Assembly: GCF_023705585.1 (NCBI RefSeq)
Contig: NZ_BOQE01000001.1
Coordinates: forward strand, 248,001 to 312,000
DNA length: 64,000 nt
Direction of reading: 5' to 3'
Source of the DNA: Collibacillus ludicampi
GTDB taxonomy: Bacteria > Bacillota > Bacilli > Tumebacillales > BOQE01
This document shows positions 17,520 through 64,000 of this stretch, piece after piece. Positions within the stretch are counted from its first letter, which is position 1. The number at the start of each line of letters is the position of its first letter. Made by a program: the position numbers and the translations under genes. The notes beneath the pieces were generated by a model. That model was not told the origin of the DNA. It did not search any database and worked only from the letters and a program-made list of their open reading frames with translations.

Positions 17520-18045
17520 TTACAATTTGGCAAATACCTCCCCCAGATCGATGCAGACGCAGAGGAATGGTTCAGAGATCAGCGTATCGCCATCGCCGAA
17601 TGTCGCGTGCAGCAAGTACTTTCCCTCTTCCAGCACAAACTGGTCGACGAGCAGATGGACCGGGTCGACCACCCAGTATTCCTTCACCCCGAAGCGTTCA
17701 TACTGCGCTTTCTTGCGAATTTTGTCGTTGACGCTGGTACTTGGCGACAAGATTTCCGCAACCAGATCGGGAGCTCATTCAATTCGCGCTTCTTTGATGA
17801 TTTTCGCGTTTTCATCAGTGATGAAGATCAAATCGGGTTGAAACAGGTTTCCTTCGTCGAAGTAGACATCCAGTGGAGGGGTGAGGAGCACTCCGTTGGG
17901 ATAACAGGACGCGTACAAACGCTGGCATAGCTCGATGAGCAGCTTCTGGTGTTTCACCGTGGGAGACGGTTTTAGTTCGTACCGCACGTAGTCAATCAAT
18001 TCGTACCGGTCAAACTCGTCGTAAATGTCTGGCTGTTCGCGGACG
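17520..18045 (-). pseudogene. Uma2-family (DUF820) endonuclease-fold gene, interrupted by a UGA
   Basis: The conceptual protein runs ELIDYVRYELKPSPTVKHQK, then VYFDEGNLFQPDLIFI, EARIE-stop-APDLVAEILSPST and YERFGVKEYWVVDP. It keeps all Uma2 landmarks, including the PD-(D/E)XK-like pair (QPDLIFI, EILSPST). One TGA at about 17774-17776 stands where the family has Gly (GGA), a single-base change. The 5' end also lacks an ATG. This is a decayed copy; members are often multi-copy in bacilli, with unclear function. Confidence 0.8.
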
Positions 18046-19425: not shown

Positions 19426-20004
19426 TCAATGAACAATTCTTGTAGCGAATAACATACGTTTCTGGATGACTGGATCATGAAGACTGACTTTGACAAAAGT
19501 GCCGTTTTTGTCATCAGGATGCAGAACTTGCCCTTTTTCTAGATAAACGCCAACATGTCCAACCTCCGTAGCTCGATTCGCTTGACTGAAGAAAACGAGG
19601 TCACCTGTATTCAGATGTTTTGGGTCTTGTAGGCGGATTCCATATCGGGAGAGCGCATATACAGAATGTGCGGGTATCCATATTCCACACGAGCGATATA
19701 ATTGCTGAACGAAACCAGCACAAAAAAATGTATGGGGTTTATCCAGTGAGGCGGCTTGCGAACGTCTTTTCGTTTCACTTAAGACTAAAGCAGAACGGAT
19801 TAATTTTTGGCGAAATGCTTTTGTGTCTTTTAGTTGAAGCATCATTGCGGGTTGTACGGTCACAAGTACTTCGCCTTGCCAGTGGTCAGGTTCGCGGGGA
19901 ATCGGTAGGGGAGTTGAGACGGTCGGTGCAGCAGCATAGGTTCCTGTGTTGGCGAGAAGTAAAAATACTATGATTATAAACGCTCGTTGCCATACGCTTT
20001 TCAC
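19426..20004 (-). CDS. Secreted NlpC/P60-family peptidoglycan hydrolase
   Basis: A 192-residue exported protein. An N-terminal basic-hydrophobic signal (KSVWQRAFIIIVFLLLA) ends near an Ala-rich site. The C-terminal NlpC/P60 domain has the catalytic Cys in FFCAGFVQQLYRSCGI, His in EVGHVGVYL and a third polar residue in VLHPDD; NTGDLVFF is the typical strand. Family members cut gamma-D-Glu-diaminopimelate links in cell wall. The GTG at 20004 is chosen because AAAGGAGG precedes it at ideal distance; the longer frame begins inside that ribosome site. Single-gene unit. Confidence 0.87.
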   Translation of the reverse strand: MKSVWQRAFIIIVFLLLANTGTYAAAPTVSTPLPIPREPDHWQGEVLVTVQPAMMLQLKDTKAFRQKLIRSALVLSETKRRSQAASLDKPHTFFCAGFVQQLYRSCGIWIPAHSVYALSRYGIRLQDPKHLNTGDLVFFSQANRATEVGHVGVYLEKGQVLHPDDKNGTFVKVSLHDPVIQKRMLFATRIVH

Positions 20005-62489: not shown

Positions 62490-62523
62490 AGAGAAAAGAA
62501 AGCAGGTGCTTTCTCGCACCTGC
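62490..62523 (-). terminator. Terminator of the yedE-tusA operon
   Basis: Minus-strand GCAGGTGC-GAGAAA-GCACCTGC followed by TTTCTTTTCTC, 22 nt after the tusA-like stop. Confidence 0.88.
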
Positions 62524-62545
62524 TCATACGATTTGAACACGCTCT

Positions 62546-62788
62546 TTATTTTGGAACACGGATATAAAAATATAAATCTTGTCCTCTTCTTTCCGGTTCC
62601 TGAATGAGCTCATACCCATGCTTCACCACTTCTTCCGGAACACTGCGGAACGATTGAGGACAATCTGCAATCACTTGCAGAACCTGTCCTGCCTTCATAT
62701 CCTGTAGCGCCTCCAGCGCATACATGACAGGATACGGTCAGGGTTCCCCGCGTATGTCCAATATGAAATCAATTTTGATCTGATCCAT
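62546..62788 (-). CDS. TusA/YeeD-like protein with in-frame UGA at the catalytic Cys (predicted selenoprotein)
   Basis: An 80-residue SirA/TusA/YeeD-fold sulfur carrier. Reading through one UGA (codon 17, 62738-62740) gives IDFILDIRGEP-U-PYPVMYALEALQDM, the family CPxP motif with U in place of the nucleophilic Cys. The rest is intact: LQVIADCPQSF keeps the conserved second Cys, the C-terminus is RGQDLYFYIRVPK, and the total length is normal. GAGGTGAT lies before the ATG. The UGA is followed by C and then, after 3 nt, by a SECIS-like hairpin. The gene is 15 nt behind a YeeE/YedE transporter and has its own terminator. The alternative is a pseudogene from a single TGT/TGC to TGA change, since other genes in this window carry point lesions. 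Selenocysteine is favoured. Confidence 0.8.
62698..62740 (-). promoter_or_regulatory. SECIS-like hairpin directly 3' of the in-frame UGA
   Basis: After UGA (62740-62738) and CCG, UAUCCUGU (62734-62727) pairs perfectly with ACAGGAUA (62705-62698). An inner stem GCGC (62719-62716) with GCGC (62710-62707) closes a 5-nt loop UGGAG. The loop starts 22 nt after the UGA and has G in its second position. This fits the bacterial SECIS rules as I know them (short loop, G in the first two loop bases, 16-37 nt from the UGA). The hairpin is inside the coding sequence, as bacterial SECIS elements are. Confidence 0.7.
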
Positions 62789-62803
62789 CACCATCACCTC
62801 ACG

Positions 62804-64000
62804 CTATTGGCCCAATTTCTGCGGGACGAACTTCTCTCCCTTGACTTGCAATCCTTTACCAAAACGGTAATGTTTTTCCCACCAGGAGGAAAAGAGATAC
62901 CATACAATCAGGAGCGCAAGCGTACCTATAAGCGCTTGAGGAGCTCCCCATTCAGTGATCAAGTTAATCGCAGGCCATCCTTTCACCAGTGCCGTGTAAA
63001 TTCCAAGATGATCCCACGCATAAGCGAGAAGAGTAGCCCCTACGATATTCCCTAAGCCAACCATCCAGAAATGGACTTGCCCTTCCATCGCCCGGTACAT
63101 CATTCCTGTTTCACATCCACCGGCCATAACTATACCAAGACCGAAGAGCAGTCCACCGATCAATGTGCTCGGAGCAGCGACTTTTATCAACGCGTGAGCT
63201 CCGCTTTGTATGAAAATGAATGTCAAAACGACACTCAACATCATCCCGACGGCCAATGCTTTTGTCATAACCGCACGTCCGGTTAACCAAAGATCACGAA
63301 AGGCTGAAGTAAAACAAATTTGACCTCTTTCAATAAAGATCCCAAAACAAGCCCCGAATAATCCGGCTATTGCGAGAAGAGATTTTCCTTTAACGATGTA
63401 TGAGACCAAAATTACCAGATAGATCATTGCGATGAGAATACCTAAGTACGTTTGATAACGGGGGGATTTTTCCTTTGTTTGATCATTCATTGCGCTCATG
63501 CGTACGCGTTGAAGATTCGGTTTTCCCCGCCACCAGGAGGTATTCACGACTTTCACGCCTAGATAGGTTCCAACCGCCGTAGCCACCATGAAAATCCATG
63601 CATGAAAGGAAAACTGCGGTACACCTGTGAAGAAAGCGGCAAGATTGCATCCCAATGCGAGACGTGCTCCGAAGCCAGCAATAATCCCACCGATGAAACC
63701 TTGAATGAGACGACGTTTTTGCCTGGGAACACGGATCTTAAAGCTATTGCTAAGCAATACGGTGATCATGGCACCGACCAGCATTCCAATCACAATCCAG
63801 CCATCGGTGCGATCAAGTGGTGTTCCCTGCATCTTGATCATTTGAAAATAAGCCCATTGGGAAACATCGACATGAAAAAGCTGTAAGAGATGACCGCCTA
63901 ACCGCGTAAATTCGCCTGTCACTGCCCAAACCGTTCCCGTGATTCCGAAGAACAGTGCACTGAAGATTCCTGCTAAACCTATCGCAACGTAAGGGTTCCA
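62804..64000 (-). CDS. YeeE/YedE-family sulfur/selenium transporter (N-terminus beyond window edge)
   Basis: At least 399 residues, open to the right edge, so the first helices are missing. About ten membrane helices. The three YeeE/YedE Cys motifs are present: ARLALGCNLAAFFTG, ERGQICFTSAFRD and AGGCETGMMYRAMEG. YeeE takes up thiosulfate through such a Cys relay; YedE homologues are linked to selenium metabolism. It is directly upstream of the UGA-containing TusA/YeeD-like gene, the same pairing as yeeE-yeeD and yedE-yedF, so transporter and carrier probably act together. Confidence 0.92.
   Translation of the reverse strand, partial: WNPYVAIGLAGIFSALFFGITGTVWAVTGEFTRLGGHLLQLFHVDVSQWAYFQMIKMQGTPLDRTDGWIVIGMLVGAMITVLLSNSFKIRVPRQKRRLIQGFIGGIIAGFGARLALGCNLAAFFTGVPQFSFHAWIFMVATAVGTYLGVKVVNTSWWRGKPNLQRVRMSAMNDQTKEKSPRYQTYLGILIAMIYLVILVSYIVKGKSLLAIAGLFGACFGIFIERGQICFTSAFRDLWLTGRAVMTKALAVGMMLSVVLTFIFIQSGAHALIKVAAPSTLIGGLLFGLGIVMAGGCETGMMYRAMEGQVHFWMVGLGNIVGATLLAYAWDHLGIYTALVKGWPAINLITEWGAPQALIGTLALLIVWYLFSSWWEKHYRFGKGLQVKGEKFVPQKLGQ

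Follow-up and report, generated by a model that had tools for sequence, protein, structure and literature searches.

A UGA-containing yedF gene beside yedE in Collibacillus ludicampi and the case for a selenoprotein form of YedF

The yedE-yedF locus

Towards one end of the stretch of Collibacillus ludicampi DNA analysed here (64,000 nucleotides, hereafter the window), the minus strand carries yedE followed by the short gene yedF (Table 1). Read with TGA as selenocysteine (Sec, U), the yedF frame is MDQIKIDFILDIRGEP-UGA-PYPVMYALEALQDMKAGQVLQVIADCPQSFRSVPEEVVKHGYELIQEPERRGQDLYFYIRVPK-stop, with a single UGA in the context GEP-U-PYP; residues 42–44 form the conserved DCP motif and Cys43 is the second conserved cysteine. 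The initial annotation had described one in-frame UGA at the CPxP cysteine of a TusA-like frame, a DCP motif downstream of it and a YedE-type transporter as partner, without giving the strand, and all three are found on the minus strand, with the UGA at codon 17 and yedE just upstream. The plus-strand reading of the same interval is meaningless, and the strong fold seen on the plus strand is a fold of the wrong strand.

From the short gap between the genes, the Shine-Dalgarno-like motif within it and the terminator-like hairpin beyond yedF, we infer that yedE and yedF probably form one transcription unit. Six terminator-like matches were found in the 2-kb region, compared to 1.7 expected.

Table 1. 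Features of the yedE-yedF locus and of related selenium genes elsewhere in the genome (window positions unless prefixed)
Feature	Position	Strand	Remarks
yedF	62546..62788	minus	80 aa with TGA translated as U; TusA fold
yedF stop codon TAA	62548-62546	minus
yedF in-frame UGA, codon 17	62738..62740	minus	nucleophilic Cys position of CPxP
yedE/FdhT	62804..64000 and beyond	minus	425 aa; start outside the window at C1:312081
Shine-Dalgarno-like motif GAGGTGAT	62793..62800	minus	within the 15-nt yedE-yedF gap
Terminator-like hairpin with T-rich tail	62500..62525	minus	21 nt past the yedF stop; consensus match only
Core of the putative SECIS	62707..62719	minus	stem GCGC 62719-62716, loop UGGAG 62715-62711, stem GCGC 62710-62707
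Lower 8-bp helix around the core	62698..62734	minus	unconserved among relatives
selA-selD region	L095:6393-8919 (C1:206557-208891)		selD directly downstream of selA; UGA in AGUGCK
Glycine/betaine-reductase operon	L214:15366-16685 and 19521-19979 (C1:2167266-2171879)		grdB-type gene and grdA, both with UGA at the established Sec position

Identity of the encoded proteins

By comparison with curated sequence models, the small carrier is YedF and not YeeD. It scores above the cut-offs of the Pfam TusA family (PF01206; 69.3 bits, cut-off 28.6) and of the NCBIfam model for single-domain YedF (NF008242; 101.7 bits, cut-off 79), and we rejected its identity as YeeD/TsuB (NF041048; 27.1 bits, cut-off 147.5) or as TusA itself (NF001423; 38.9 bits, cut-off 78). 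Membership of the two-domain YedF family (TIGR03527) is likewise not met (22.3 bits, cut-off 110), the protein having only 80 residues and no C-terminal DsrE-like domain. An AlphaFold2 model with Cys in place of Sec (pLDDT 89.8) superimposes on StYeeD in the YeeE-YeeD crystal structure 8k1r with a TM score of 0.90 and 1.1 Å; TusA was matched too. A paralogue search of the C. ludicampi genome found no Cys paralogue of yedF.

YedE matches the NCBIfam model for YedE/FdhT, described as a selenium-metabolism membrane protein (NF033796; 575 bits, cut-off 350), and does not meet the cut-offs for YeeE/TsuA (123.7 bits against 400 and 71.3 against 645). It is present in all 98 yedF loci, lying no more than 300 nt upstream of yedF in 96 of them.

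In the YeeE system, C293, C91 and C22 relay thiosulfate to YeeD, where C17 receives it; R28, R98, E101 and E261 lie where the two proteins meet (PMC11073785). Alignment to PDB 6leo pairs C145, C323 and C256 of YedE with C293, C91 and C22 of StYeeE, and this relay is invariant in 87/87 YedE sequences. R262, R330 and E333 correspond to R28, R98 and E101, and all lie within positions that are 97% conserved (87 sequences); this correspondence of docking residues is our interpretation of how the alignment is spaced. The place of C17 in YeeD is then taken by Sec17 in YedF. Since folds, Cys relay and docking residues are as in StYeeE-YeeD, YedE-YedF could be an importer of thiosulfate or another sulfane sulfur in which Sec merely speeds the chemistry. 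However, both proteins match selenium-related models and fall far under the cut-offs for TsuA and TsuB, from which we infer that the likely cargo is selenium and not thiosulfate.

A compact hairpin downstream of the UGA

In the yedF transcript the UGA would be followed by a hairpin comprising an 8-bp helix, UAUCCUGU/ACAGGAUA, and a 4-bp GCGC/GCGC stem that closes the loop UGGAG 22 nt past the UGA. In isolation this hairpin has a stability z-score of -2.8, with 1 of 200 shuffled sequences equally stable. The initial annotation had taken both helices to be part of a SECIS element, and while the hairpin is present as it described, its two parts differ in their conservation. Across 20 distinct sequences, pairing is complete (100%) in the upper stem, two of whose pairs show double changes, including a compensatory change from G-C to A-U, whereas only 46% of cells are paired in the lower helix, which is kept in C. 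ludicampi and a few relatives. We therefore reject the lower helix as a component of the element; on comparative grounds the SECIS is the upper 4-bp stem with its UGGAN loop.

We pooled the 69 fetched yedF loci described below with loci from our genome searches, giving 61 distinct UGA alleles and 27 distinct Cys alleles over the hairpin stretch. The 4-bp stem with a UGGAN loop is present in all 61 of the former and in none of the latter. Stems of the UGA alleles are mostly GCGC/GCGC, with the compensatory variants ACGC/GCGU and GCAC/GUGC, and if synonymous codons are redrawn, a 4-bp stem arises in any one gene with a frequency of 3.5%. Synonymous divergence (pS) among UGA alleles is 0.81 before the UGA, 0.65 in codons +1 to +5, 0.16 in codons +6 to +11 and 0.81 thereafter, compared to 0.79 across codons +6 to +11 in Cys homologues. 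The Leu codon at +8 is CTG in all UGA alleles, while five different codons are used among Cys alleles. The hairpin is thus not a by-product of the encoded ALDAL peptide, as Cys homologues with similar residues choose other codons. Downstream of the UGA, pN/pS is approximately 0.15, indicating that this part of the gene is translated. An Rfam search of the yedF region returned weak, irrelevant matches only.

Read-through at codon 17 would depend on the hairpin segment GCGCUGGAGGCGC. Joint conservation of hairpin and UGA is evidence for Sec decoding as strong as sequences alone can supply, although it is not a demonstration. We infer that yedF encodes a selenoprotein form of YedF, a reading with strong support of this kind but for which Sec incorporation has not been shown.

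Distribution of Sec and Cys alleles

Codon 17 is UGA in 53 and Cys in 16 of 69 yedF loci that were fetched independently from a source of 84,980 species genomes. The inferred Sec form occurs in at least 50 Bacillus-like bacteria: it is no one-genome rarity, being spread through many Bacillales-type spore formers. Comparing homologues beside yedE had been suggested as a check on the Sec reading; in these, UGA goes together with the conserved hairpin and Cys with its absence. An in-frame stop confined to one genome might be a genuine stop codon, reflecting a pseudogene or a sequencing error. However, dozens of independent assemblies share the UGA, which is accompanied by the hairpin and by purifying selection downstream, and chance, sequencing error and pseudogene formation can be excluded for practical purposes.

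selA is present in 85 of the 399 genomes sampled from the class. UGA alleles of yedF occur in 17 genomes, all with selA, and Cys alleles in 13, of which three have selA (Fisher p = 1e-5, uncorrected for relatedness and thus only indicative, since the genomes are related). selD was detected in 28 of the 30 YedF genomes, including nine of the ten that lack selA, and tRNA 2-selenouridine synthase in 26. Of the two without detected selD, one genome is fragmented (G054), and in the other (G162) the YedF match is weak and unverified. YedF thus tracks selenium use in general, and its Sec form tracks the Sec machinery; since Cys YedF works in many selD-positive genomes, the Sec residue is not essential to function. 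That 28 of the 30 YedF genomes carry selD, when most of the class genomes sampled lack selA, also speaks against a sulfur importer, although how common selD itself is across the class has not been established; we consider that explanation quite unlikely.

In Aneurinibacillus, selenocysteine synthase has been reported in two species only, A. terranovensis and A. tyrosinisolvens (PMC7996765). The named Aneurinibacillus species with a UGA allele (L026, L028) are these same two, in agreement with that independent survey. The YedE tree implies at least three to four exchanges between Sec and Cys, among relatives that are phylogenetically dependent; the direction of the exchanges can only be inferred as the root of the tree is not fixed. 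One Cys allele, L107, lies beside the Sec allele L104 with full support and is nested in a Sec clade; its genome retains selA and its yedF hairpin has decayed. It seems to be identical to L027, from Aneurinibacillus sp. Ricciae_BoGa-3, and represents a natural experiment on Sec-to-Cys exchange.

A second, deeply separate lineage of Sec-YedF (L101, L102) was observed within the same order. Its YedE is 52% identical and its hairpin is also of the GCGC/UGGAN type, but we cannot distinguish independent gain from ancient origin. Some loci from other members of the order are the same as Tumebacillus loci (L099 and L049, or L097 and L036, for example), from which C. ludicampi appears to be distantly related to Tumebacillus.

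Selenocysteine machinery and other selenoproteins of C. ludicampi

The genes for Sec decoding, a search for which had been suggested as a check, were all found in C. ludicampi: a tRNA-Sec with anticodon UCA, selB (391 bits, cut-off 242), selA (618 bits) and selD (418 bits), the last with a UGA of its own in the GUGCK loop. selA and selD lie approximately 40 kb before the window.

A scan for in-frame UGA codons with coding sequence on both sides covered about 61% of the genome, so that our list of selenoproteins is incomplete. It recovered selD and yedF and added two genes of one operon. The first is a grdB-type gene with the Sec site STUGTC, which matches the model for the glycine/betaine/sarcosine/proline reductase selenoprotein B subfamily (655 bits) and is nearest to betaine GrdH, yet below the strict cut-off of the GrdH model. 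The second is grdA, with the Sec site CFVUTAAG (219 bits, cut-off 130). Most of the long, high-scoring candidates from the scan resemble adjacent genes parted by an ordinary stop. With Sec-type betaine/glycine reductase genes as well as the decoding machinery, C. ludicampi can be regarded as a normal Sec-decoding organism. A grdE-like frame lies upstream in the operon and a thioredoxin reductase between its two selenoprotein genes; by eye, the grdA hairpin region has a UGGA loop.

These selenoproteins bear on the possibility that YedE-YedF serves the maturation of formate dehydrogenase alone, the role attributed to FdhT/FdhU. In Campylobacter the pair is named fdhTU for its part in Se-dependent formate dehydrogenase (cited in PMC5322559, PMC4607533). 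In C. ludicampi, however, a search for formate dehydrogenase alpha subunits gave only sub-cut-off matches without TGA and hence no Sec formate dehydrogenase, and the Sec users found were grdA, the grdB-type gene and selD. A restriction to formate dehydrogenase is therefore very improbable here.

A proposed role in selenium delivery

We consider it probable that YedF is a selenoprotein which works with YedE, its UGA17 being decoded at the compact SECIS, in a selenium relay toward SelD; this is the best overall explanation of our data. Following apparent co-transcription with yedE, tRNA-Sec and SelB would decode UGA17 as Sec at the 4-bp stem and UGGAN loop. By homology, YedF would dock on YedE from the cytoplasmic side in the way that YeeD docks on YeeE, which would set Sec17 beside C256, the last cysteine of the relay C145-C323-C256. 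A selenium species, hypothetically one resembling thiosulfate such as selenosulfate, would travel down this relay, and its Se atom would be picked up by Sec17, forming a perselenide or selenenylsulfide that Cys43 might resolve. YedF would then hand the selenium toward SelD. Relay, Sec pick-up and delivery to SelD are all inferred from the homology with YeeE-YeeD, and no step has been shown.

Without Sec decoding, translation would terminate at the UGA, 16 residues in, so that the carrier can only be made when selenium is available. Such selenium-gated synthesis of YedF would parallel that of the Sec-containing SelD of C. ludicampi. Going further, Sec-YedF may be a dedicated carrier from importer to SelD, whose own Se atom binds and passes on the selenium for all selenoproteins. 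Together with Sec-SelD it would then close a positive feedback loop, gated by selenium, in the spore-forming Bacillales; this we offer tentatively, judging it somewhat less likely than not.

YedE has been reported exclusively in selenium users (PMC5322559), which speaks for selenium as cargo. Deletion of yedE in Methanococcus maripaludis gave no clear selenium-transport phenotype (PMC11097638), which counts against our proposal. It is also possible that the pair guards against excess selenium, YedF capturing surplus selenide or selenite and YedE exporting it: YedE has been raised as a possible selenium exporter (Lin et al. 2015, PMC5322559), and gating by UGA would likewise raise YedF at high selenium. 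Both the homology to an importer and the order of the Cys relay favour uptake, however, and the M. maripaludis yedE transcript is increased on selenium starvation (PMC11097638), leaving export unlikely in our judgement. For the uptake relay that we prefer, the substrate of YedE, its direction and the transfer to SelD are inferred and remain unproven, and there are no peptide, 75Se or expression data for Sec-YedF.

Relation to known systems

The closest described proteins are the E. coli-type YedF/FdhU (NF008242, PDB 1je3), which share the single TusA domain, the GEPCPYP motif, DCPQS and the yedE neighbour; members described in the literature covered here have Cys, while C. ludicampi YedF has a predicted Sec and SECIS. 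YeeD (TsuB) and YeeE (TsuA) (PDB 8k1r, 8j4c) resemble the pair in TusA fold, active-residue position, relay cysteines and docking residues, but differ in their models, in the Cys replaced here by Sec and in that the distribution of YedF/YedE tracks selD. TusA, the sulfur carrier of tRNA thiolation (PDB 1dcj, 3lvj), has the same fold and CPxP active site, although YedF falls under its equivalog cut-off and is partnered by a membrane transporter gene. The two-domain YedF of selenium operons has a similar N-terminal TusA/SirA domain and a link to SelD, and differs in its C-terminal DsrE domain. Sec-containing SelD, like Sec-YedF, acts in the selenium pathway while being a selenoprotein, and hence depends on selenium for its synthesis, but it is a selenophosphate-synthesis enzyme of unrelated fold and not a carrier. 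Finally, the YeeE/YedE-family selenoprotein (PF04143, GUxSG) of a 2026 inventory places Sec within the same transporter-carrier system, but in the transporter, whereas C. ludicampi YedE has Cys and the inferred Sec lies in the TusA-type carrier.

YedE and YedF/SirA-like proteins were already known as selenium-linked genes (PMC5322559, PMC2432076). The 2026 table of 119 prokaryotic selenoprotein families (PMC13188914) lists the YeeE/YedE transporter selenoprotein and does not include TusA, SirA or YedF; the text of a 2022 review contains no mention of SirA, TusA or PF01206 and names YedF merely as a selenium-related protein. Within the open-licence literature, Sec-YedF therefore appears to be an unlisted selenoprotein family. 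Prior annotation by NCBI is possible, since only that literature was covered and RefSeq annotation was not queried. According to a 2024 paper no selenium-dedicated transporter is known (PMC11097638), and a 2026 review describes the system that supplies SelD with selenium as incompletely resolved (PMC13188914). That the carrier beside a suspected transporter switches naturally from Cys to Sec ties YedE-YedF to selenium, and cultured spore formers with the UGA allele, such as Schinkia azotoformans and Neobacillus bataviensis, offer a place to test both selenium entry and its handover to SelD. Gene callers that end at UGA would truncate or miss such genes.

Two further frames with in-frame stops were observed in C. 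ludicampi. A formate dehydrogenase/nitrate-reductase-like gene (L125, C1:2391339-2393378) contains an in-frame TAA and is a pseudogene or an assembly error. On the minus strand of the window, at 17525-17891, an endonuclease-like frame (Uma2-type by eye) has one in-frame TGA (ARIE-TGA-APDLVAEILSPSTS) that is not at a Cys position, and is probably a decayed gene rather than a selenoprotein.
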